IMG/VR virus record: IMGVR_UViG_3300034198_002886
Location: 1-23,986 of that record
From: a virus
Length of the DNA: 23,986 nt
Strand: one strand, 5' to 3'
How positions within the stretch are numbered: position 1 is the stretch's first letter; each line of letters starts with the position of its first letter. A program made the position numbers and the translations under genes. Positions 6,048-22,400 of the stretch are shown piece by piece. The notes under the pieces are model-generated. The model did not search any database, was not told the DNA's origin, and worked only from the letters and a program-made list of their open reading frames with translations.

Positions 6048-9000
6048 ATGGCTGAACAATACTCTCAACCAAGGGCATATTTGGGGGGCAATGATGCCCA
6101 ACCCAGCAATGTCACTAACACTGGAAATAAAGCGTATCTAGACGATAGTCTCTACGCACCATTATCTAGTAGTGGAGGTAGTTCTGTTCAGCAGTTTACT
6201 GGCGATGAAGAAGTAGATAAATGGTTAAACACTCTCCCTGCAGAACAGCGTCAGATTGAATTGGATGCAATCAATGCTCCTTTGACTGGCGAAGAGGTCG
6301 CACAGAAGAGAGCAAAGAATCCATTGTATGTTCCAACATTAGAAGAGTTTAAAGCATTAAGAGATTATAAGAAGACACAGGATACAGAGTTCCTTAGTGG
6401 TCTAGGAGAAGCGGCTATGCACATCGCTGGACAGTTTGGAAGTGCGGCTGAGTTTATTGCAAAACACCCTTTAGAATCAACATATAAAGCACCTGCTAAT
6501 TTAGTTGAGGCTACATTCCAAGGGTTCAGAAATTTCTATGGTATGCTTGGTGAGTCAGAGAATCCAGACTCTGTAATGTTTAAATTCAAGGATTTAATAA
6601 CTGGTGATGGAACTGATGAATCACAGTACGACCAATATTTAAAAGCGTTGCAGTTCAATAACGATACGAATGATTTGATGTCTGGAAAGCAGACAATCGT
6701 TATGAACAAGGACTACATCAACAACGAGATTGTACAGGTAACATCTAATTTTACAGACCCAACATTGCTGGTTGGTTTGATGACTGGCGGTGTAGGTTTA
6801 ACTGGCAAGATAGCACAGGCTATCGGACAGGCTGAGAGACTAGCCGCATTCGGTGCTAAGGCATCCGCAATCAAGAATGGTCTTTACGCTGGAACTTTAA
6901 GATGGGGTGCTGGTGTTCCTCTAGAGATGATTGGTGGTGCGACAAGAAACACTATCGATTACGCTGTGCAGAAGGGTGCAAACGCATTCGAGTTCGCAAG
7001 CGGTATCAGTGCCGCAGAGGGTCAGAATTATGTCAGACGATTCGGATTCGGAACTGCTGTTACAGATTTAGGTGGCTACGGAGTGCCAATCGCATCGGAA
7101 CTATCTCAAGCGTATGTTGGTGCTGGAATCGCTAAGGGCTTTGGTGAGGCACTGAACGCAACAATCGCAACGGCTGAGAAGCAGGGATTCAAGCGTGGTG
7201 GAATCTCGTTCGCTAGACAGGCACTAGAAGAATCTAATGCCATGCTCGCCAAGGGTGGACAGGGTCTATCTAAACACGCATCAAATTTACTCAAGGTACT
7301 CGACAAGGCTGACCCGTTCTTAATCTACGCTAGGACTGGATTAGAGGGTGCTACGGCTGGTATGGTCGTAGGTGGCGGTCTAGGATACCTTAACGACAAG
7401 GAGCAAGGTATGTACTCTGGAATGGGTGCTGGTATGGCTCTCGGTGCTATCGGTGCTTTGGGTGGTCGTGGGTTATCTGATATCAGTGGTGCTACTAGGA
7501 GCATGAGGTATGGTGTGCAGGCTAAGATGGCTCTAGAGATAATGAAGGACAGAAGTCCAGTAAGCAACCAGACTTGGAGTCTATTGCAGAATGTATTTTC
7601 AAAGAATGTAGATGATATCAACAAACTCATCGTTGCTGTAGACACGGCACTTCCTAACACGGAATGGGCTACAATGAGTCCAGATGAATTAAAGCAGACG
7701 CTCAAGGCTCGTGGTTTAGACCCAGATAAGTTTGACGGATTCGAGCATGAGACAGTTCCTGCATTCGAACCAAAAGCAAAGCAAACAGATTTTTCACAGG
7801 TATCTCCAGAGAAGTATGCAAACTTCCTTGCGATAGATTTTGGATATCTTCCAGAGACTATGAAGAATGCGATTTCTGGTGGTGACCTATCATCGTTCAG
7901 AGATTTATTGGTAAAGAAAGGATTAACTAAATTTAAGGATGTTCCAGACAATATAGTTAAATTAGTTGCAGATGAATATATTAAGCGTGAAAATACTCAC
8001 CGAGCAGAAGTTCAAGGAAGAAAATTTGAGTTCACTGAGCAACAGAAAGCAAGATACGATAGACTTGCGGCAGAAGAAAGTGGTGGCAAACAACCTAAAG
8101 GAACTGCTGAAGCATACAAGAAGCAGATGCAGGATTACTTTGAAAAGAATAAAAAAGATTACTACCATGGTTCTCAAGAATTTACAAAAAACGAAAGATT
8201 CAAACGACAAGTTGAAACGGCTTTAGATGTTCAAAGAAGTTTAGACCCTTCTGAAAGAGCAAAAGACCTTCAACAATTAAAGGATAGTTTAGACCCTAAA
8301 AATATTAAGATTTATGAAGAGACTTTACGCAGGGCTAAAGAAGAAGGCTTAGTTAATTCTAAAGGAGTTGGTGAGGCTGAGGCTAGTGTTGTTCGCTACA
8401 AGAAGGATGCTAATGGAAACAAGATTCGTGCCATCGATGAGATGGGTTATGAACTTCCTACTGTTGCAGAATTATCTGGAGCAAGCGGTTGGCATGAATC
8501 GAAGGGTGTTGGTGGAAAGAGTAGAGTTGTTATCAACACAGATTGGTTATCAAAGAACACTGCCCCTCATGAGTTCGGTCACGGGATATTTTCAGAGTTA
8601 GTTTTTCAACCAGTATTTAAAGAGAGAATTAGAGGCTATGTCCTAGGCAATGTAGATAAGGATGGTAAGATGATTACACCTCCGTTGATTGATTTAGAGA
8701 CAGCCAAGAAGTTCTTCACAAGATATATTGATATAGAAAATACAGCAGAGATTTCCGTTGAAAGAAAGCAACTTCTAGATAAGGCACTCAAAGAATACTT
8801 TATCGATGGTAAGATGAATGTCATAGACCCTGTATCGAAAACACCATTCTTAGAGAAACTCGTTGAAGAGTTCGGTACATACTATTGGACTCAGTTTATT
8901 AAAGGCAAGCCAGTCGATTTCTTATTTAGGGGTGGTGAGATGTCCATGATGGATAATGTTCTTGAGATGGTTAAGAACGGATATATTGACATGATGAAGA

Positions 9001-12000
9001 CGGAGATTGAACGGGCTAATCCTAACTTTAGATTCAATGAAGATGCCACCAGTCTCAATGATGCATTTACAGACAGAAAAGGTAATCGTGTCAGAGTCCC
9101 AGAACTAGACGCACTCATGACCGACATGGTCAAGGCTGTCATGCAGACAAATCGCAAAGGTTCGTTTGATTTCAGTTCTTTATCAGTTGCTGGACAGGAG
9201 GCTTACATCAAGGCTAATGGTCTTGAGCGTATCGTAAAAAAGCAACCCACTGGCAAGTACAAGGTGATGTCGGACAAAGAATTAGATGTCGCTAACAAGG
9301 CTCGTGGTGTAGAAATTTTTAAGGCTCTGGACGCACTAGACCCTAAACTCAAGGTCGTTAAGGATGACAAAGGTAATGTTATCGGTGGATTAACCAAGGT
9401 TAACAACGAGTATGTAGGATTGTTATCCAACGAGGTTCTAGACCATCTGGTTGCCACTGGACATATGTCGCAGGGAGAGTCCTCTAAGATTAAATTGTTC
9501 CAAGATATTTCTTTGGGTAAGACTAAAGCCAATGTCGTTGAGATGACCTACTTCGGTCTATCCGCACAGACAACAACTGGTGCTGTAGATATCCGTGTAT
9601 ACGGAAACAAAGTTCCAGTCAAGAATCGCAAGGTTCTCGTTCTTGGAGTAGATAACACATTCAGACAGAATGGTGTATTCAGTTCTAAACTGTCCACCAT
9701 GGACTGGCAGGTAATCGAGACTCGTGGTAAGAACCTATGGGAAGACCCTGTAGTCAGACAACTGTGGGGAGATGACAGGGGAGCATTTGAGGGTGACTTC
9801 TTTAGATACCTAGAGAACGCAAGCAAGCCTAAGACAGACCCAACTAGAATCAATGACTTCGCTGAACTCTGGCAGGAGAGCGGTGCTATGAAGCGTAACA
9901 TCATGCAACAGTTCGCTGGCTTAGGCAAGCAGGCTGATGTTGCTTACGCTAACACTCCTTTGACGGAGATTCACTGGGACATCAACCAGTCGTTCATGTA
10001 CCTTCGTGCCGATAGAGCGAGCAACATCCGTTTATCGAATGAGAGGATAACATACGACCATAGGAACGCTGGACATGATATCAGTCGCAACATGATGCCT
10101 GCTGAGATGATGAGCGAGGATACTCCTAATGGAAAGATACACAAGCACCCATCTGGTTATAGATTCATTGAGAACGATAAAGGTGTAAGAGTATTTGATG
10201 CGAATGGAGATGACATCGGTTCGTTTAAAAATCTTGATGACGCACTCGTCAAGGCTAAACAAGACTACACTGAAAAGTTTCCGAATGAAAAGCCTATCGA
10301 TAGTTTAGACAATGTTAAGGCTGATGTAGTTAAACCGCAGTTTGAATCAAGGGCTGAATATATTAATAAAAGAGTTATAAAACAACTTAAATCAATGGGT
10401 GGAAATTTTCATGGAAAAGCAATAAAGAGATTAAAAGAAAAAATTGAACAGTCTAAATTTGACCTTAAACTTTCAGAAAATAAGCAAAGTACAGGTTTAG
10501 TAAATATGAGAGACCTAATAGAAGGGTATACAAAAGATGTAGAACTTTTCCAAAAACTATTAGATGGATTTGAAAGTGGTGATTTATCTAAATTAACACA
10601 AACTGAAATACTTGCTGGATTAGATAGACTAGACCCATATGTTTATCCAAAAGTAAATAAAACCATATTAGATATGTTTATGGAGGCTGGTATTGTATTT
10701 GCAAAAGAATGGGATGCTAAGTATCCTATGACATTCCGTTCTCCTTTAGATGATGCAATTAAATCATTTTTTGCTGGAGATAAAGAAGTCACTGCACAAC
10801 AGTTGCTTAAAAAATTACTCCGTGTAGGTTCTTCAAAGGGAATTCAAATCTATTCTGAGGCTGACGCAATTGGTTTGGTTAAATTGCTTAAATCAAAAAT
10901 TGAAAAAACCAAAAGTATACATAGAACTATTAATCCAGAAACTGGAAACTATTATCCTCGTGGAACTCCAGATGCTCCAGTTATTGAAAAGGTCGCTGGT
11001 GAAAAACCAGCAATATTAGATAAAGATGAAATTCTTAAGTACTTAGATGAAAACAAAATTATTCTTACGATTGAAGAGAATGCTAAAGAAGTAAGAGGAT
11101 TAAATACGGAAGACTATACTGCAGATGGCACTAGAAGCGGTTATCGTGAAACGGCATTAAGAATTAATCCTATGTATATGCATGATGTTATTGGTCACTA
11201 CAATAAGGCTGTAGCACATCTTAGAACTACAGATAGAGTTGATTCTGAAGGTAATCGTGTTAATTTTGGTGATGAATATCAAGCCAATAACACAGATAGA
11301 GCCAATGAAAAAAATCTAATTTATTTAAAAAGAAGAGCAGAAAGAGCAAAGAAATTTCTTGGAATATTAGATTTAAATACACTTAAGAATGTTGCTTTGA
11401 CTGATGACGCAGTAAATAGTTCTTTAGAAAAATTGGCTGACTCGACAATTACATCGTTTGATATTGAGGCGGTTGTTGGTCAACTTATAAATTCACAATC
11501 TACAAGCAAAGAACGAGCATTTAATTTTGCTATTCAAAATGCGGCACTAAATGCCGCTCCAGATGGAGGTACATTAACTAATTTTAGTGAAAAGAAATTA
11601 AAGAATTATGCATTAACAATTAATAATCTAATAGATGCTTGGGCTAGTTCTTCATTACAATTATTAGGAAAAGTTAGCGAAGGGGAATATAAATCTTATT
11701 TACATACTGGTAGGGATGATAGTATTAACGCACGAAATATTATAGACAGGGGTGTTTTATCAAAAGAAAATATGACAAAGTTTATTAAGTTTGTTCAAAA
11801 TAATTATAAACTTAATTTAAATAAACCTGCTTATGATTTATTTCTTGAACTTGCAAGTCATAACACAATGTTTGTGCAAGGATTTGGCGAACCATTATTT
11901 ATGCCAGAAAATAACCAAAAGGTTGGGCTTAAAGTTCATAGAGAATTATTATCTTTAGCGGCAGATAGAGTAACAAAAACAAAAGAGTTTACAAAAGAAA

Positions 12001-15000
12001 ACGGATTCGATGATTTGCAAAAAATAATACAGGAAGGATATTTTGGTGGAAGATATAAACTAGATTATATTATGCCAGAAAAAATCATGACTGGAATAAC
12101 TGAATTTGCTAATCTTGGAGAAATGAAAAGAGGTCGCAAATCCAATGTTCTTGATAGATTAGGTAATGGAACAAATCTAGAATACTTAGAGGATGTACAT
12201 AGTTATTTAAGTTTTGGTAACATAAGATTTACTGAAAATGGTGATGTATTTTTTAGACCAATAGGAGACGATTATGGTAGACCTTTAAGGGCTACCAGTG
12301 TTGGTCACGGTGCTAGAGAAATTTTTGTTAATTCTTTTAAACATTTTGATTCAAAAGAAATAGTTGATAGCCTTGTTAAAAGAGCAATGGTACAAGATTC
12401 GCTTAAAGAAAGATTACAAAGAGCAGATGAATCAAGTGAAGCAATAGATAGAGAATCATGGAAATTTGAAGATTTAAGTAAAGATAAAATCATGGAATGG
12501 TCTATTGATTTTCAGTCTCAAATTGATAGATATAATGCGGCTAATTTAGAAGGTGAGGCTTATCCGTTTATGTCTGTAGAAGAATGGGGAGTGCATTTAA
12601 TTAAGATGCAGATTCGTGAGGCTATTCAGAAGGGACAAAGAAAAATAACCATCACACACCCAGATGATTCTCCAACAAAATCTAATGCACCAGAATCTCG
12701 TTATAGAATGTATGGTGTAATTCTTCCTAATCTTGCTAGAGGAATTGTAAAAAAATATGGAATTGAAGTTAAACAAGACCTTAAACTACATACTAAAAAT
12801 GTTTCAGATGCATTAGAAGCCCATGGAAAACACGCTTCAGTAACTCATGTTTTAATGCAAAATGCACTAGATATTTTTCAACGAAATGCATCTGGTGAAT
12901 CTGCTGATGTTATTAATAAAATAACAATTGAATTGGCTATGCCTGTTAAAAATTTAATTGCTAGAGAAAAAGATAGGTTGATTAAAAATGCTGGAAAAAC
13001 AGATGAATCAACAATCGAATCTGCTACAAGACTTTCTAGAGATGGAGGAGACGATTGGAATTTTACAACAACTGAGTTAATTCAAAATGGAGTTAATAAT
13101 CCAGAACTTAGAATTGCTTTACAAAATGTAGTTGGTGGCAAAACTAATGAATGGAAATCATATTCAAAATATTTAATAGAATCTGAACGCTCTATTAAAG
13201 GAAAACAAATGCCTTCTAATGTAAATTTGTGGACTATTCCAGATGCTGATAAAGCAAAACTGCAAACAGAGTTAGCAATTGACCGAGGATATAGTTTCAT
13301 TCTTAACGATGAAATCATCCAAGCGTTCATTCGTAACGATGAGGGTACGGCTATGAAGCAGTATATGCCTAGGGATAAGAAAGAGAAAGTCGTTCCTCGC
13401 ATTGTTAATAAAGAAGAATACAATAGAATGATGTCTATTATTAAATCTCCAAATATGGCACATCTTAAGGCGGCTTATGATAGAGAAGATATAACATTCG
13501 ATAACTTTGACCATAGTAAATATAGAAATTATCATGTAGTGTCTCATGGTCTAGATAATGCTCCAACATTTGATTGGACAGATTCAGACACTGGTGAAGT
13601 TATACATAAGGGAGAAGGTGGTGGAACATATCCTGCATATAAAACTCCATACGCATGGGCTACAACAAAGCCAGATATGGCTGATATGATTAATAGAGTA
13701 GGTGAATTAAATAAAGCAGAACATGGTGAATGGATTGCACCAGTAATGTTCTTTAAATCTCCAGACACAAAGACCCGTGGAACTCCAAATGGTTCTAATG
13801 GTTATTTGAATGCAATGAGTTTACTTAATCGTAAGGGTGCAATTGATGATGTTAAATTTAAGAATGCTTTAGTTCTCGCATTCAACGAAAGCAAGAAACC
13901 TATTGGAAATATCGATACTCCTATTTCAGAACTTCTAAGTAATGCTAGAAGTATTCTTTCAGATAAAACATATGCAATGAAATCAAGGGCAAAATTAATC
14001 GAAAGATTAAATAGCAAAATGCATAATGTTATTGATTTTAATAATCCAGAAGTTCAAAAATTAATTCCTACAATTGGTGATTATACTGGTAAAAAAATTA
14101 TTAAACCAGAGTTTTTAGATGCAGTATTTGGAATGATGAGTGACCCATTATTCAGTCATGCTAAATCTCGTCAGTCATATGGTGGTGATGTGTATGGTAT
14201 GTTAATGTTTGATGGTACAGTTAGGGCTGAAAAGGGAGACTTCCATGGCTCTTATGCATATAGTATTATAAAAACAGATGGCACACCAGTTAAAGTTGAT
14301 TACTTAACAACACCTATAAATCCAACTAAGTTAGTTAAGTCTGCTATAACTAAAGTTAAATACGAAAAAGGAAATAAGAGTATGCCTGTGTTTGATGAAG
14401 AAGGAAATGGTATTTATAAAACAACTAAATTAAAACCAAAATCAACTTCATCGTTCATGGTTCAAACTGGTCAAACACAAAGACCTATTGTTCATAATAA
14501 ACTTTATATGCCTAGAGATGTTAATGACAAAACTGTTGGCAAAATTGTTTATGAGCCTAGAGATATTTCTTGGGTAGATATTGGTCACTATCCTAACGAT
14601 GGAGACCATGAACATAATGTATGGGAGAACAGGAACTCTGGCTTGTGGGCTGACTTTGATGGAAAAATAACAACAAAAAATCCACAAGAATGGGATGACC
14701 CATCTTTTACACATTCTGAGTGGTTTATGGGTTTAAGAAGGAAACACAGAGATGATAGAAGAGCATATAGCCCAGAATCATCTGGAAGGTATGAGAATCC
14801 AAAATATGATGCTGATGGAAAATTAACAGAAAAAGGAAGAATAAGTGTAACATCTCTTACCGATAGAGAATATACCATGGATGGTTTAGATAAAGATATT
14901 GCTTACTATGCTAAGGTAAAAAAAGACTTAGCAGATAGACTTGGATTTCCTGCAGTTGATTATGATGCCTATCTTTTTAGACCATCTAAAAAAATACAGA

Positions 15001-15674
15001 AAGAAATGGGTGTTGATTTAGACGCACATGAATCTTATGGTGACGGACTTTATTACAACAAAGCAATTAAATTTATGCCTAACGAGTTCAAGGATGGACT
15101 CAAGCGTCTCATCGATGCGGTTGATGCACAATCTAATAGAGACCAAGTTCCAGCAAATGTTAAGGCTGGAGTAAGCACTCTCGTGCAGGCTATCAAGAGA
15201 CAGGGCGATGAAGATGTTAGGGCAGGAATCATCCGTGGTGTCCAGCAACTCGCTGACGCTATCGATAGACAATCTGATGAAGACAAAGTACCAGAGAGAG
15301 TTAAGGCTGGAATCAAGAATCTAATCAAGGCGAGCCAAGAGGTTGGCAAGCCAGTTAAACCCAAGGCACAACCTAGAACCACTGCCAAGACTACCCCTAA
15401 GAATGTGCAGGTAGAGAACGAACCTGCTCCAGAGACACAACCAGTATTCAACAACAACTTCCCACAACCTCAGTTCACATCCAAGTGGAGGTCGTTCGTA
15501 CAGGAGAACACTACCGATGGTAACAGCATATTCAAGAACGCAATGAACTATGTCATCATACAGGCTGGAAAGAAGTACAGGGTTTACAATCCATACAAGA
15601 CGATGATTGGCATCTACGATGACCTAGAGCAAGCCAAACGAAGAGTTCAAAGAGACGAGCCTAAACAACGATGA
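6048..15674 (+). CDS. Giant polyvalent ejection protein with HEFGH metallopeptidase motif (T7 gp16 position)
   Basis: A 3208-residue single frame, more than twice the length of T7 gp16 (about 1300). Gly/Ala-rich membrane-like segments lie near residues 238-262 and 431-478. A zinc-peptidase motif H841-E-F-G-H845 follows, with E940/E941 in EEFGTYYW as a possible third ligand. From about 1590 to 2240 there are fragments of a domain common in large phage polyvalent proteins (ILKYLDENKI 1662, YRETALRI 1699, AHLRTTDR about 1720, IREAIQKGQRKITIT 2189, VILPNL about 2224). A further such module lies around 2640-2760 (GDVYGMLMF). Helical repeats occupy about 3014-3098, and a small beta/alpha module ends the protein. 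No lysozyme or transglycosylase motif is convincing. A likely role is ejection with the genome, with the peptidase acting on host envelope, host protein or virion protein. Its GC content swings between about 18% and 53% per 60 bases. Confidence 0.7.
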   Translation: MAEQYSQPRAYLGGNDAQPSNVTNTGNKAYLDDSLYAPLSSSGGSSVQQFTGDEEVDKWLNTLPAEQRQIELDAINAPLTGEEVAQKRAKNPLYVPTLEEFKALRDYKKTQDTEFLSGLGEAAMHIAGQFGSAAEFIAKHPLESTYKAPANLVEATFQGFRNFYGMLGESENPDSVMFKFKDLITGDGTDESQYDQYLKALQFNNDTNDLMSGKQTIVMNKDYINNEIVQVTSNFTDPTLLVGLMTGGVGLTGKIAQAIGQAERLAAFGAKASAIKNGLYAGTLRWGAGVPLEMIGGATRNTIDYAVQKGANAFEFASGISAAEGQNYVRRFGFGTAVTDLGGYGVPIASELSQAYVGAGIAKGFGEALNATIATAEKQGFKRGGISFARQALEESNAMLAKGGQGLSKHASNLLKVLDKADPFLIYARTGLEGATAGMVVGGGLGYLNDKEQGMYSGMGAGMALGAIGALGGRGLSDISGATRSMRYGVQAKMALEIMKDRSPVSNQTWSLLQNVFSKNVDDINKLIVAVDTALPNTEWATMSPDELKQTLKARGLDPDKFDGFEHETVPAFEPKAKQTDFSQVSPEKYANFLAIDFGYLPETMKNAISGGDLSSFRDLLVKKGLTKFKDVPDNIVKLVADEYIKRENTHRAEVQGRKFEFTEQQKARYDRLAAEESGGKQPKGTAEAYKKQMQDYFEKNKKDYYHGSQEFTKNERFKRQVETALDVQRSLDPSERAKDLQQLKDSLDPKNIKIYEETLRRAKEEGLVNSKGVGEAEASVVRYKKDANGNKIRAIDEMGYELPTVAELSGASGWHESKGVGGKSRVVINTDWLSKNTAPHEFGHGIFSELVFQPVFKERIRGYVLGNVDKDGKMITPPLIDLETAKKFFTRYIDIENTAEISVERKQLLDKALKEYFIDGKMNVIDPVSKTPFLEKLVEEFGTYYWTQFIKGKPVDFLFRGGEMSMMDNVLEMVKNGYIDMMKTEIERANPNFRFNEDATSLNDAFTDRKGNRVRVPELDALMTDMVKAVMQTNRKGSFDFSSLSVAGQEAYIKANGLERIVKKQPTGKYKVMSDKELDVANKARGVEIFKALDALDPKLKVVKDDKGNVIGGLTKVNNEYVGLLSNEVLDHLVATGHMSQGESSKIKLFQDISLGKTKANVVEMTYFGLSAQTTTGAVDIRVYGNKVPVKNRKVLVLGVDNTFRQNGVFSSKLSTMDWQVIETRGKNLWEDPVVRQLWGDDRGAFEGDFFRYLENASKPKTDPTRINDFAELWQESGAMKRNIMQQFAGLGKQADVAYANTPLTEIHWDINQSFMYLRADRASNIRLSNERITYDHRNAGHDISRNMMPAEMMSEDTPNGKIHKHPSGYRFIENDKGVRVFDANGDDIGSFKNLDDALVKAKQDYTEKFPNEKPIDSLDNVKADVVKPQFESRAEYINKRVIKQLKSMGGNFHGKAIKRLKEKIEQSKFDLKLSENKQSTGLVNMRDLIEGYTKDVELFQKLLDGFESGDLSKLTQTEILAGLDRLDPYVYPKVNKTILDMFMEAGIVFAKEWDAKYPMTFRSPLDDAIKSFFAGDKEVTAQQLLKKLLRVGSSKGIQIYSEADAIGLVKLLKSKIEKTKSIHRTINPETGNYYPRGTPDAPVIEKVAGEKPAILDKDEILKYLDENKIILTIEENAKEVRGLNTEDYTADGTRSGYRETALRINPMYMHDVIGHYNKAVAHLRTTDRVDSEGNRVNFGDEYQANNTDRANEKNLIYLKRRAERAKKFLGILDLNTLKNVALTDDAVNSSLEKLADSTITSFDIEAVVGQLINSQSTSKERAFNFAIQNAALNAAPDGGTLTNFSEKKLKNYALTINNLIDAWASSSLQLLGKVSEGEYKSYLHTGRDDSINARNIIDRGVLSKENMTKFIKFVQNNYKLNLNKPAYDLFLELASHNTMFVQGFGEPLFMPENNQKVGLKVHRELLSLAADRVTKTKEFTKENGFDDLQKIIQEGYFGGRYKLDYIMPEKIMTGITEFANLGEMKRGRKSNVLDRLGNGTNLEYLEDVHSYLSFGNIRFTENGDVFFRPIGDDYGRPLRATSVGHGAREIFVNSFKHFDSKEIVDSLVKRAMVQDSLKERLQRADESSEAIDRESWKFEDLSKDKIMEWSIDFQSQIDRYNAANLEGEAYPFMSVEEWGVHLIKMQIREAIQKGQRKITITHPDDSPTKSNAPESRYRMYGVILPNLARGIVKKYGIEVKQDLKLHTKNVSDALEAHGKHASVTHVLMQNALDIFQRNASGESADVINKITIELAMPVKNLIAREKDRLIKNAGKTDESTIESATRLSRDGGDDWNFTTTELIQNGVNNPELRIALQNVVGGKTNEWKSYSKYLIESERSIKGKQMPSNVNLWTIPDADKAKLQTELAIDRGYSFILNDEIIQAFIRNDEGTAMKQYMPRDKKEKVVPRIVNKEEYNRMMSIIKSPNMAHLKAAYDREDITFDNFDHSKYRNYHVVSHGLDNAPTFDWTDSDTGEVIHKGEGGGTYPAYKTPYAWATTKPDMADMINRVGELNKAEHGEWIAPVMFFKSPDTKTRGTPNGSNGYLNAMSLLNRKGAIDDVKFKNALVLAFNESKKPIGNIDTPISELLSNARSILSDKTYAMKSRAKLIERLNSKMHNVIDFNNPEVQKLIPTIGDYTGKKIIKPEFLDAVFGMMSDPLFSHAKSRQSYGGDVYGMLMFDGTVRAEKGDFHGSYAYSIIKTDGTPVKVDYLTTPINPTKLVKSAITKVKYEKGNKSMPVFDEEGNGIYKTTKLKPKSTSSFMVQTGQTQRPIVHNKLYMPRDVNDKTVGKIVYEPRDISWVDIGHYPNDGDHEHNVWENRNSGLWADFDGKITTKNPQEWDDPSFTHSEWFMGLRRKHRDDRRAYSPESSGRYENPKYDADGKLTEKGRISVTSLTDREYTMDGLDKDIAYYAKVKKDLADRLGFPAVDYDAYLFRPSKKIQKEMGVDLDAHESYGDGLYYNKAIKFMPNEFKDGLKRLIDAVDAQSNRDQVPANVKAGVSTLVQAIKRQGDEDVRAGIIRGVQQLADAIDRQSDEDKVPERVKAGIKNLIKASQEVGKPVKPKAQPRTTAKTTPKNVQVENEPAPETQPVFNNNFPQPQFTSKWRSFVQENTTDGNSIFKNAMNYVIIQAGKKYRVYNPYKTMIGIYDDLEQAKRRVQRDEPKQR
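8568..8582 (+). other. Zinc-peptidase active-site motif HEFGH
   Basis: Codons for His841-Glu-Phe-Gly-His845 within the giant protein, in the context KNTAPHEFGHGIFSELV. HExxH preceded by a small/Pro-Ala helix start and a strand (SRVVINTDWL) is the classical zincin active site. The candidate third zinc ligand is Glu940 or Glu941, about 95 residues later, which would make it a gluzincin-type enzyme. Peptidase specificity cannot be read from the sequence. Confidence 0.65.
15087..15350 (+). repeat. Degenerate helical repeats near the C terminus of the giant protein
   Basis: Four imperfect units of roughly 20-28 residues, at about residues 3014-3098, share the pattern (V/F)(K/R)(A/D)G-x3-L-x2-A(I/V)-x2-Q-(S/G)(D/N)-x-D. 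Examples are FKDGLKRLIDAVDAQS, VKAGVSTLVQAIKRQGDED and VRAGIIRGVQQLADAIDRQS, followed by VKAGIKNLIKASQ. They are amphipathic helices followed by a Pro/Lys/Thr-rich linker. This may be an oligomerisation or spacer stalk. The DNA repeats are too diverged to look recent. Confidence 0.55.
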
Positions 15675-15976: not shown

Positions 15977-16353
15977 GATTAATCCTACTAGCATTATTAT
16001 TTACAGCCTGTTCAACGCTTCCAGATAGCGATGTTATAAACGAAGATGTTATTCATATGGCACAGGATGCTATTGTACCTGCTGTCTCTGACCAGCACAC
16101 GCTACTCTATTCTTACGCTGGTGTAGGTCTTGTAGTTCTAGGTGCATTGACCTCAGCATTCTGGGACAAGAAGAGTGGATTGATTTTAATCCTATGTGGT
16201 ACTGCATCTGGTGCAGTTCCTTATGTAGTAACATCTAGTTACTTCGCTTGGATATCTGCTGGCTCGCTACTAGCCGTAGCCTCTATAGGCATATGGTACT
16301 TACGCTGGAAGGCTATGCACGAGGCTAAGGAAGAGGAAGAAGCGGACGCTTAA
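15973..16353 (+). CDS. Small membrane lipoprotein, possible lysis accessory
   Basis: A 126-residue protein with an N-terminal signal ending in a lipobox-like LLFTAC (Cys13; Phe at -3 is non-optimal). A short polar stretch of about 30 residues follows, then three hydrophobic segments at about 46-64, 68-87 and 90-110, and a charged tail (EAKEEEEADA). The ATGA overlap with the holin stop and the late position suggest a lysis-related role such as spanin or holin partner. A classic unimolecular spanin would have a long periplasmic domain and a single C-terminal membrane helix, which this lacks, so function is left open. It is the last gene of the plus-strand operon and shares its stop with the convergent gene. 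Confidence 0.6.
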   Translation: MRLILLALLFTACSTLPDSDVINEDVIHMAQDAIVPAVSDQHTLLYSYAGVGLVVLGALTSAFWDKKSGLILILCGTASGAVPYVVTSSYFAWISAGSLLAVASIGIWYLRWKAMHEAKEEEEADA

Positions 16354-16640
16354 TCGTTCTTCCAAAATTCTTCTGGGATTAAGTCTATGTATATGGGTGT
16401 TCTTTCACCGATGTTTGCACCCATGATATTGAAGTGGATATGTTCTTCGGCTTCATCGTAGGACATACCTTCATCCATTAATTGGATTGCGATTATACCA
16501 GTTGAGTACACTGCAACATTAGTTCCATTTACGCAGGATAGACCGATGAATGCATCTGACAAACCATCTGCAATATAGATTTCTTCCTCGCCTATATCGC
16601 ATAGGAACTTCTTTAGTTTGTGGTCGTTGTTTTGTTTCAT
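16350..16640 (-). CDS. Conserved-type phage protein of unknown function
   Basis: A 96-residue acidic protein and the last gene of the minus-strand operon. Its central part (IADGLSDAFIGLS, VAVYSTGIIAIQLMDEG, MSYDEAEEHIHFN, GANIGERTPIYID) has the pattern of a small protein widespread in tailed phages for which I know no function. The ATG overlaps the upstream gene's stop by 4 bp (ATGA type). Its stop codon is read from the same TTAA that ends the convergent lipoprotein gene. No nucleic-acid-binding or catalytic motif is evident. Confidence 0.6.
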   Translation of the reverse strand: MKQNNDHKLKKFLCDIGEEEIYIADGLSDAFIGLSCVNGTNVAVYSTGIIAIQLMDEGMSYDEAEEHIHFNIMGANIGERTPIYIDLIPEEFWKND

Positions 16641-16882
16641 AAATCAATCTTGTAGTAAGGTATTATACTGATAGTTCCAGACGAGTTCTTGCGTCTAAGT
16701 TTTCTCATAGCAACCTTGCTTTGGTTGGCTTGTATAAAATCTCTGATAACTTTACAGGTTTGTTCCTTGCCCATCTTGAATGCTTCCTGCAGTTGTTCCC
16801 TAGAGAAGTATCCATCTGGAACTTCATCTTGGATTGGCTCTCTAATCAAGCGAGCGAGTTTAAGCAGTTTTGCTTTGTTCAT
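16637..16882 (-). CDS. Small winged-helix-like protein
   Basis: An 81-residue basic protein. Residues about 24-50 (DGYFSREQLQEAFKMGKEQT) read like the first helices of a winged helix-turn-helix. The strand-like tail GTISIIPYYKIDL would form the wing, as in small phage winged-helix proteins. A DNA-binding or regulatory role is inferred from shape only. The gene starts 23 bp inside the 3' end of the upstream gene and has no Shine-Dalgarno. Confidence 0.5.
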   Translation of the reverse strand: MNKAKLLKLARLIREPIQDEVPDGYFSREQLQEAFKMGKEQTCKVIRDFIQANQSKVAMRKLRRKNSSGTISIIPYYKIDL

Positions 16883-17042
16883 AGAGTTTGTTTACTAGGT
16901 CAACATCCTTATCAGACTTAGCCCAAGATAGGGCTAGGCTGAGGTAATGCTTGAACAGGTACGGCTCTTTGATGTTGCTCTTGGCTTTAGATAAAGCGTT
17001 AGCAAATGTGTGAGTTCGGTTATGTAGTTCTTTATTGTTCAT
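16860..17042 (-). CDS. Small helical protein of unknown function
   Basis: A 60-residue protein, counting from the ATG at 17042 (MNNKELHNRTHTFANALSK). The in-frame TTG at 17060 is a less likely start because it would lengthen the overlap with the upstream gene. It consists of predicted amphipathic helices (FKHYLSLALSWAKSD, VNKLYEQS). No family is recognised. It is supported as a gene mainly by its place in an unbroken chain of short overlapping minus-strand genes and by the lack of a credible alternative on the other strand. Confidence 0.45.
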   Translation of the reverse strand: MNNKELHNRTHTFANALSKAKSNIKEPYLFKHYLSLALSWAKSDKDVDLVNKLYEQSKTA

Positions 17043-17238
17043 CTTTATTTTTAATATCAAAGGTTGGATTCTCTATTACGACAAATTGGTCAGAGCGAAA
17101 ATGGCGAATCCTGCCATCACATTCAAGAACAATAGCAAAGATATCGTTAGAAAATGTTCCTCCATCACGAACATATAATATAATGCCACCACCGAGTTCA
17201 GTAGTAACAAGCACAGGATTGCGGAACTCATAAATCAT
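17032..17238 (-). CDS. Small beta-rich protein of unknown function
   Basis: A 68-residue protein with alternating hydrophobic strands (NPVLVTTELGGGIILYV, IFAIVLECDGRIRHF, DQFVVIEN), suggestive of a small SH3-like or beta-barrel fold. Its ATG overlaps the stop of the phosphoesterase gene in an ATGA tetranucleotide, implying translational coupling. No catalytic residues are recognisable. The plus-strand frame over the same bases is a shadow. Confidence 0.45.
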   Translation of the reverse strand: MIYEFRNPVLVTTELGGGIILYVRDGGTFSNDIFAIVLECDGRIRHFRSDQFVVIENPTFDIKNKDEQ

Positions 17239-20610: not shown

Positions 20611-20652
20611 AAATGTAGAATCACACTAGTATTCAATTGTATTACCTGTCAA
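20611..20652 (-). promoter_or_regulatory. Candidate promoter/operator upstream of the ribbon-helix-helix gene
   Basis: Read on the minus strand, a perfect TTGACA (complement of 20647-20652, overlapping the loader gene's last codons) lies before the 31-bp gap. At 18 bp spacing the -10 would be TAGTGT, a poor match. CAATTG and ACTAGT palindromes lie in between and could be operator half-sites. Tentative: the TTGACA also encodes the loader's C terminus. Confidence 0.25.
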
Positions 20653-21319
20653 CCCCAATTCCGATTATTTTATAATAATCTTTGAATCGTCTAATCATGG
20701 CTACCCCCGTCTCCTTGTCCCGATTGTCGAACCTATCTAGGAGACTAGTTCCGTTGAAGTTCGTGGATATGATGGTCACCCTGCGAGCCGTGGAACGCTC
20801 ATCGATTATACTGAACAGGTCGGATGCCATGCGTTGGGTCAGACGCTCCTTGCCGAAATCATCTAAAACTAGAACCTCAACGCTGATTAGTTTATCAATC
20901 ATAACAGAGTGCTGGCGGTCATCGAAAGACTTCTCAATCATACCCTCTAGTTTACGCATGGTTAGGAACTGAAAGTCTAACTGCCTGTCCTTTAATGTTT
21001 TATCCATCCAGAGTCTGCTGATAATCTCCCATATGCCCCTAGTCTTGCCTACACCCGTAGTTCCGTGGAGCAGTAGACCTGCTACATCTCCATCTGGTTT
21101 CCAATCTAGAACCTCTTGAACCTTCGGGTGCAATCTGGTTTTATCTGTATCCTTGAATATTGCTGGCATGGCTGGTGGATGGATTGAGTTAACAAGCCCC
21201 CTAGCGGTCACACGCTCTTGGTTCATATGCTCACGGCACTCGTGCCAGCGATGTAGAGTCCCGTCTGGATTGGCTAACAACGCTCCACGCTTTCCGCACT
21301 GACAGATGATGTCGCTCAT
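20642..21319 (-). CDS. DnaC/IstB-type AAA+ helicase loader
   Basis: A 225-residue AAA+ ATPase. Walker A is GTTGVGKT (86-93, Lys92), Walker B is VLVLDDFG (149-156, Asp153/Asp154), sensor 1 is STN (185-187), preceded by the DERSTARR segment holding the likely arginine finger, and MIRRF (209-213) is a sensor-2 candidate. The N terminus has a Cys/His cluster (Cys7, Cys9, His23, His26, Cys28, His31) that may bind zinc, as seen in some DnaC/DnaI loaders. The role is to load the host replicative helicase at the phage origin, with the winged-helix initiator encoded upstream, as lambda P does for O. The start ATG overlaps the preceding gene (ATGA). GGAG lies 8 bp upstream but inside that gene's coding sequence. 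Confidence 0.85.
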   Translation of the reverse strand: MSDIICQCGKRGALLANPDGTLHRWHECREHMNQERVTARGLVNSIHPPAMPAIFKDTDKTRLHPKVQEVLDWKPDGDVAGLLLHGTTGVGKTRGIWEIISRLWMDKTLKDRQLDFQFLTMRKLEGMIEKSFDDRQHSVMIDKLISVEVLVLDDFGKERLTQRMASDLFSIIDERSTARRVTIISTNFNGTSLLDRFDNRDKETGVAMIRRFKDYYKIIGIGVDR

Positions 21320-21534: not shown

Positions 21535-21730
21535 TGGTAGATTCTAATTCCTTTCTTGCTTTCTTGAATGCGTATGTTGCTTGATTGAAACTAACACCAA
21601 GATTAATCTGAAATTGTTTCAGAGACCAGCCGTTCTTGATGTATTGAACTGCGAGATTCTGAATCAGTTGTTTAGGCATATGTGCCTTCACACTGCAATT
21701 GATTCTGTTCATGTATTGTTTAGAAGCCAT
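21524..21730 (-). CDS. Small helix-turn-helix-like protein
   Basis: A 68-residue basic protein. Residues about 21-63 (LIQNLAVQYIKNGWSLKQFQ, then INLGVSFNQATYAFKKARKE) fit a helix-turn-helix in which LGVSFNQATYAFKKA would be the recognition helix. It could be a regulator of the replication genes or a DNA-binding accessory. It overlaps the initiator gene by 11 bp and the following gene by 11 bp. No experimental family is known to me. Confidence 0.45.
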   Translation of the reverse strand: MASKQYMNRINCSVKAHMPKQLIQNLAVQYIKNGWSLKQFQINLGVSFNQATYAFKKARKELESTNGL

Positions 21731-22400
21731 TGTTGTGGTCGTTAGCGGTTAGCGGTTTCTTTTGCACACCCTGTGTTCGTGGTTCGAATAGTCCCATCCA
21801 TCCATTTGTAATACTCTGATTGATAGAGTCAATACTTTTCATCTCGCCCCATCCAGCGAACTGCTTCCACTGCATATCGATTGATGTCTCCTTCAATGGC
21901 TTCTTGAGTTCCTTCCTGTAATCAATCCATCTGAACCATGCGTTGCTGAATAACTCTGAACTAAATGGTAGTTGTTTTCCTACAATCGGAGCGGAGTTCC
22001 TTGTATCTATATCCTCTTTATTATCTTCTTTTATATATGTAGGAAGTTTATTTCCTCCCCCCGTGGAAGTTTTTTTCCTAGGGGTAGGCAATTTATTTCC
22101 ACCCTTCGAGCCGACTGCCCCTGCCAATGCGACCTTCTCAATCGTCCGTATAATCCTCTTTCCGTCCTCCTCTATGCGGATAATGAGTTTTAGGTCATCT
22201 AACTCCTTCAGCAGATTGCGAATCTGCCTATCTGACAGCCCCAAGGAGCGAGCCAGATACCCGTTCGAGGCATAGCACCCGTCCTCGTTATCAAGTGAGT
22301 CCACGATGCCGTATACGAACTTGGCACAAGGGGACAAGGATTCTAATTGGAATACCTCCTTGGGTATCCAGACTCCTGTGAACTTTGGGTTGTCGCTCAT
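21720..22400 (-). CDS. Winged-helix replication initiator (phage replisome organizer, lambda O-like in role)
   Basis: A 226-residue protein. Residues about 5-92 form a winged helix-turn-helix of the phage replication type (WIPKEVFQLESLSPCAKFVY; then SNGYLARSLGLSDRQIRNLL with a wing at IIRIEEDGKRIIRTI). A Lys/Gly/Pro-rich linker at 100-125 holds a repeated GNKLPT (101-106 and 116-121). The C-terminal domain (WFRWIDYRKELKKPLKE, MQWKQFAGWGE, ITNGWMGLFEP) is typical of initiators that contact a helicase loader. The linker-coding DNA contains three iteron-like repeats next to an AT-rich stretch, so the protein probably binds an origin inside its own gene. It is followed two genes later by a DnaC-type loader. 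The ATG overlaps the exonuclease stop (ATGA). Confidence 0.8.
   Translation of the reverse strand: MSDNPKFTGVWIPKEVFQLESLSPCAKFVYGIVDSLDNEDGCYASNGYLARSLGLSDRQIRNLLKELDDLKLIIRIEEDGKRIIRTIEKVALAGAVGSKGGNKLPTPRKKTSTGGGNKLPTYIKEDNKEDIDTRNSAPIVGKQLPFSSELFSNAWFRWIDYRKELKKPLKETSIDMQWKQFAGWGEMKSIDSINQSITNGWMGLFEPRTQGVQKKPLTANDHNNGF
22042..22055 (+). repeat. Iteron copy 1, GGAAGTTTATTTCC
   Basis: A 14-bp unit with inverted arms GGAA/TTCC, preceded by GTA. It is the copy adjacent to the AT-rich stretch. It differs from copy 2 at one position and from copy 3 at two. On the coding strand it encodes the second GNKLP of the initiator. Confidence 0.65.
22065..22078 (+). repeat. Iteron copy 2, GGAAGTTTTTTTCC
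   Basis: A 14-bp unit starting 23 bp after copy 1, with the same GGAA/TTCC arms. It is read in a different codon phase from copies 1 and 3 (it encodes part of PRKKTST), so its similarity cannot be explained by a repeated peptide. This supports selection on the DNA. Confidence 0.65.
22087..22100 (+). repeat. Iteron copy 3, GGCAATTTATTTCC
   Basis: A 14-bp unit starting 22 bp after copy 2, preceded by GTA like copy 1. One arm is changed (GGCA). It encodes the first GNKLP of the initiator. Confidence 0.6.

Follow-up and report, generated by a model that had tools for sequence, protein, structure and literature searches.

A probable replication origin inside the initiator gene of an uncultured phage, and a possible correspondence between its recognition helix and its iterons

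Background

Replication origins carried inside the gene of their own initiator are already known as a kind, and here we describe what is very probably another, in a virus contig of 23,986 bases (IMG/VR record IMGVR_UViG_3300034198_002886, positions 1 to 23,986; 'the window' hereafter means this whole stretch of DNA), itself probably a fragment. In phage lambda, four 18-base-pair (bp) repeats, or iterons, stand at steps of 20, 24 and 23 bp in the middle of gene O and are followed by an A+T-rich tract; the initiator forms dimers, a separate loader is encoded and the helicase is that of the host. For unwinding, two lambda iterons with the tract suffice; phage growth is sustained with three (PMC7466680). 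The window has three 14-bp iterons instead, but follows the same plan: they lie between the DNA-binding and C-terminal domains of the initiator and adjoin an A+T-rich tract, the initiator presumably forms dimers here too, and the phage encodes a loader, with no DnaB-type helicase of its own found in the 30 records examined. A first-pass annotation of the sequence had called this system lambda O/P-like, which holds for its logic; a sequence relation to lambda O was not detectable. The initiator (A2) compared with lambda O in hhalign gave a probability of 0.4% and an E of 0.15, its Pfam family is HTH_36 and not Phage_rep_O, and we found no solved structure that matches lambda O by sequence; lambda P, to our knowledge, is not DnaC-like by family. 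The locus is best read as an in-gene origin on the lambda O/P pattern, with an initiator of an unrelated family, in a phage that uses the host replisome.

Three further systems invite comparison. RepA of plasmid pSK41 has an N-terminal DNA-binding domain, four Rep boxes central in its own rep gene, an origin-encoded part that serves as a linker, and a primase-interaction domain (PMC5703833). It shares the in-gene origin and provides the nearest solved folds to the window's initiator, but it is a RepA_N plasmid protein with a primase-interaction domain, whereas here we have a phage, no RepA_N match and a DnaC-like loader. RepA of PLE, a satellite in Vibrio cholerae, covaries with its own origin as a module (PMC8263062); three semi-palindromic iterons are common to both systems, but those of PLE are about 30 bp long and intergenic, and the covariation is known at the level of two groups, not of single bases. 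The cultured Pseudomonas phages Cruim01 and Skulduggery have a related N-terminal domain and, within the gene, repeats spaced 20-24 bp with an A-rich tract behind them, but identity is only about 30-40% and the iterons are different ones (CTATTCGGAAAA, CCCCTTCGGAAAAC). In Skulduggery the initiator gene (L223, 3001-3765) carries four CCCCTTCGGAAAAC repeats beside its A-rich tract, and a gene annotated as a DnaC-like loader lies next door. The repeats carry no annotation in either phage record, nor is an origin feature annotated in Skulduggery.

Since in-gene origins are known already, more interest attaches to a correspondence between residues of the initiator's recognition helix and bases of its iterons; in the open-access literature, to which our search was confined, we found nothing on an HTH_36 in-gene arrangement or on a residue-level code. 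Few natural pairs are known, so the way in which initiator and origin change specificity jointly is still poorly resolved; the roughly 50 distinct natural helix/iteron pairs described below offer a direct and cheap binding test. Moreover, because site and reader lie within about 150 bp of each other and recombination carries them along jointly, the initiator gene alone should reveal where an uncultured phage has its origin and to which specificity class it belongs.

An iteron array in the linker codons

The first-pass annotation had described three 14-bp repeats at 23- and 22-bp steps within a winged-helix initiator gene, together with a low-GC, purine-rich segment adjoining them and a degenerate further copy. 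Each is present, the further copy being kept as probable:

21720-22400, minus strand: initiator gene, 226 amino acids, Pfam HTH_36 and PHROG 678
22087-22100, minus strand: iteron 1 in coding order, GGAAATAAATTGCC
22079-22086, no strand assigned: spacer between iterons 1 and 2, TACCCCTA in coding sense, with a G or C run
22065-22078, minus strand: iteron 2, GGAAAAAAACTTCC, in a codon phase unlike that of iterons 1 and 3
22056-22064, no strand assigned: spacer between iterons 2 and 3, ACGGGGGGA in coding sense, with a G-run
22042-22055, minus strand: iteron 3, GGAAATAAACTTCC
21997-22041, minus strand: putative unwinding element, with two AAAGARGATAA-type units 12 bp apart
21967-21980, minus strand: probable fourth, weaker iteron, GGAAAACAACTACC, beyond the tract and 75 bp from iteron 3

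The iterons are near-palindromes on the coding strand of the initiator gene (the minus strand of the window), within codons of the protein's linker. Against GGAAGTTTATTTCC they show 0 (22042-22055), 1 (22065-22078) and 2 (22087-22100) mismatches, and the copy at 21967-21980, probably a real site, shows 3. The strict pattern GGMARTTTWTTTCC matches nowhere in the 23,986-base record but at the three iterons; GGAAGTTTATTTCC at up to 3 mismatches has 8 matches in the window against 3.16 expected, 4 of the 8 falling inside 134 bp. The claim that the repeats face the same side of the DNA stands only roughly, as steps of 22-23 bp amount to 2.1-2.2 turns and leave neighbours offset by about 35-70 degrees.

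Repeats within a gene may merely reflect a repeated or low-complexity peptide, here GGNKLPT twice and a K/E/D/N-rich stretch, and iterons 1 and 3 do encode the identical GGNKLPT. The middle copy, however, is read in another frame, as had been pointed out from the start (codon phases 0, 1, 0 in coding order), and shuffling synonymous codons of the gene destroys the repeat: in 1,000 such shuffles none reached the observed triple (best 8 mismatches, 6 observed), nor did any of 1,000 codon-order shuffles (best 12).

Relatives extend the argument. Six close relatives were compared first and then about 100 further loci, from which 62 full-length homologues were analysed (52 once near-duplicates were removed). 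All 62 hold the array in linker codons, with copy 1 beginning at codons 85-111 and steps of 22/23 in 30 genes and 23/23 in 32; not one has all its copies in a single codon phase, the combinations being (2,1,0) in 32, (0,1,0) in 24 and (1,2,1) in 6. In L035 a single 14-mer recurs in each of the three phases, and both L035 and L004 have three identical copies despite the differing frames; with the lack of any single-phase array, this is a mark of selection on the DNA. L004, whose protein is 88% identical to the window's, has GGCAAAAAATTGCC at all three places; the two loci differ at 9 of 42 iteron bases and 1 of 17 spacer bases. Loss of the repeats in so close a relative had been named as grounds for doubting the array, but L004 only seems to have lost them, all copies having been swapped jointly for another class. 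Given copies that change together across codon phases, we consider the peptide explanation ruled out by the phase and shuffle tests, with a vanishingly small probability left to it.

The classes found among these phages are GGAA..TTCC, GGCA..TGCC, TGCA..TGCA and TGCGGAAAACCGCA. The fourth site stands at the same place, 75 bp further along, in L004 and L005 as in the window, and that of L004 (GGCAGACAGTTGCC) fits L004's own class on both arms; elsewhere in the loci, arm-matching sites show no excess (197 seen, 206 expected). As a further feature of the array, at least four consecutive G or C occupy the second spacer in 52 of 52 homologues and the first in 39 of 52, the first reading CCCC in the window and GGGG in most relatives; such runs might be contacted by the wing, act as a rigid hinge, or clamp the array against melting.

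The 45 bp that follow iteron 3 (21997-22041) are 22% GC and, in coding sense, 76% purine; in relatives the means over this stretch are 28% and 70%, and the consensus is CATATAAyAAAGAAGATAATAAAGAGGATAAAGATACA. Codon identity at unchanged residues reaches 0.875 in this tract, against 0.47 expected from codon usage and 0.35-0.63 in ten-residue blocks outside residues 106-135. Silent-site conservation accordingly peaks over the array and tract, the outcome that the first-pass annotation had looked for in relatives.

The initiator and its probable origin

A winged-helix initiator is indeed encoded over the same DNA. The protein belongs to Pfam HTH_36 (E 2.4e-9, 37.3 bits against a cut-off of 25) and matches PHROG 678, 'replication initiation O-like' (1.3e-22). 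Its AlphaFold model, at a mean predicted local distance difference test score of 73, has a winged-helix domain at about residues 8-88, with a two-stranded wing at 73-86, followed by a disordered or low-confidence linker (about 97-143) and a helical C-terminal domain. The recognition helix is placed by the model and by the residue-base association reported below:

22194-22232, minus strand: recognition helix, residues 57-69

The closest solved folds for residues 8-88 include 4pql, 4pt7 and 5kbj (Z 8.2-8.8, best 4pql at 8.8), which we take to be pSK41-type RepA. The nearest folds include RepA initiators from staphylococci, in one case bound to DNA; at such middling Z values the match is support for the fold and not proof of it. 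The likeness is one of fold only, as the RepA_N Pfam domain has no match in the initiator up to E 0.1.

Fixed array spacing in 62 genes, co-change of the iterons with the helix, and silent-site conservation together support the iteron-based origin in the initiator gene with which the first-pass annotation began, read here as an initiator-binding array and an unwinding tract. We think it highly probable that this region is a phage replication origin within the gene of its own initiator, where the initiator would open the tract beside its iterons and the loader would bring in host DnaB. The winged-helix protein would bind three, possibly four, 14-bp palindromic iterons, each probably as a dimer whose helices 57-69 read both arms; the complex would stress and open the adjacent A+T- and purine-rich tract, a DnaC-like loader would then deliver the host DnaB helicase, and the host replisome would copy the phage. 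Binding, dimers, unwinding, loading and origin function are what we infer from the sequences of the locus and its relatives.

What the sequence suggests directly is just a set of binding sites and a DNA-binding protein, and many winged-helix proteins are repressors. The repeats might in that case be an operator at which the initiator represses or roadblocks transcription within its own gene, with replication starting elsewhere, and a promoter scan gave no clear picture (the promoter and terminator scan returned nothing above shuffles). Several points speak against this. The sites stand about 300 bp into the gene and not at its start, and the A+T- and purine-rich tract behind them is where silent sites are conserved most; the protein itself has matches among replication-initiation families, and each of the 30 records examined encodes a helicase loader. 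We judge the operator explanation very unlikely.

Some observations nonetheless weigh against an in-gene origin, a reading drawn from comparison. In 16 genes of the GGAA class, copy 1 is degenerate or amounts to a half-site. Cumulative GC skew, put forward as a check for a start near 22.0 kb, does not turn there and does so near 16.5-17 kb; that turn coincides with a switch in gene orientation, so that the skew marks orientation and not an origin. Finally, the contigs may be fragments, and the absence of polymerase and helicase genes is therefore no proof.

A correspondence between helix residues and iteron bases

Across the family, when each gene is called by the majority of its half-sites, arginine or lysine at residue 61 accompanies G at iteron position 1, and glutamine accompanies T (C in some cases); 62 of 62 genes fit. 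Examples of natural helix types are R61/N62 in the window, the same pair with A56 in L004, Q61/N62 in L032, Q61/A62 in L028 and R61/T62 in L078. Counted by half-site over 49 distinct combinations, arginine goes with G in 102 of 102, lysine with G in 60 and T in 12, and glutamine with T in 95, C in 24 and G in 1. Of the 87 winged-helix columns, none predicts position 1 nearly as well as residue 61 (normalised mutual information 0.58, next column 0.26; leave-one-out accuracy 98%), and residue 62 is the best column for position 5 (0.42, next 0.27). Position 2 is always G, together with R58, throughout the initiator family analysed. In distant relatives with S58 (L148, L151, L153, L156, L158-L160, L166 and L172), C replaces G at position 2, a pattern as if residue 58 reads that base. 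Residue 56 (S against A/E/G/Q) was hinted at for position 3 by the window/L004 pair, and other columns predict that base equally well.

From these associations we tentatively propose, as a possibility still short of probable, a near-modular code for HTH_36 phage initiators, in which residue 61 would specify base pair 1, residue 62 base pair 5 and residue 58 base pair 2. A phage would switch origin specificity by altering the helix along with every iteron while keeping the fixed in-gene frame of 22-23 bp, so that phages sharing a host could keep separate replicons.

The same match could arise by shared ancestry and by exchange of one linked 150-bp module, without direct contact between residue and base, an explanation that would bear on the code and leave the origin untouched. 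Exchange does occur: in L051 and L054 the block from helix to iterons, flanked by breakpoints on both sides, is that of L028 while the C-terminal domain resembles L033's. Well-supported independent switches are also few. In a tree built without helix and linker each trait switches 9 times, all coincident, with 4 on starred (well-supported) branches; trees of the linked segment place 2-3 on starred branches. Ancestry, however, would make many columns predict the base alike, whereas residue 61 stands far above the other 86, which speaks against descent alone as the cause. Two pairs, L050 with L027 and the window with L004, differ chiefly in helix and iterons, and the former pair looks like a local change; the distant families also fit, S58 for R58 going with C for G at position 2. 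The statistical independence of the switches is modest, and the column control and distant families carry much of the weight; on balance we find ancestry and exchange without contact an unlikely account, with a real if minor share of the probability.

The direct residue-base code meets difficulties of its own. Well-supported independent helix/iteron switches number 2-4, too few for p < 0.05, and some switches are cassette exchanges; position 3 is not attributable to any one residue. Initiators with K61 are loose, the L139-L144 group mixing G and T at position 1, and given this mixing the code, as it appears from the sequences, is graded.

Replication genes and genome context

The DnaC-type loader reported in the first-pass annotation lies near the initiator gene:

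20642-21319, minus strand: DnaC-like helicase loader (AAA+), 225 amino acids, PHROG 50 4.1e-19, IstB_IS21 4.9e-7

Its homologues in the 30 records are 47-90% identical. DnaB-type helicase (DnaB_C) and family-A polymerase (DNA_pol_A) domains were found in none of these records, which may be incomplete, with control genomes positive for both. Neighbouring genes encode an exonuclease VIII-like nuclease, an Erf-type annealing protein and endonuclease VII, and the set would fit a phage that initiates replication at an origin of its own while relying on the host replisome. No cultured phage was found with a close relative of the initiator or loader, and 13 loci in bacterial genomes, from various phyla, are distant HTH_36-type proteins that indicate no host.

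A T7-like order of virion genes, as first suggested, could not be confirmed: the virion open reading frames have no clear T7 matches, and PF12236, the one marker looked for out of a T7-type (autographivirus) head-tail connector and tail gene set, matched 0 of 30 records, its control being silent as well. Among the virion genes is a frame of 3208 amino acids at 6048-15674, with no Pfam match and one marginal PHROG match, whose very large product may be ejected along with the DNA. Gene orientation flips near 16.4 kb (16350-17060 and around), virion genes lying on the plus strand and early genes on the minus. Elsewhere, one 88-kb record (IMGVR_UViG_3300010970_000150) holds both L067 and L070, two initiator/loader pairs of different specificity classes, and is either two joined phage genomes or a misassembly.
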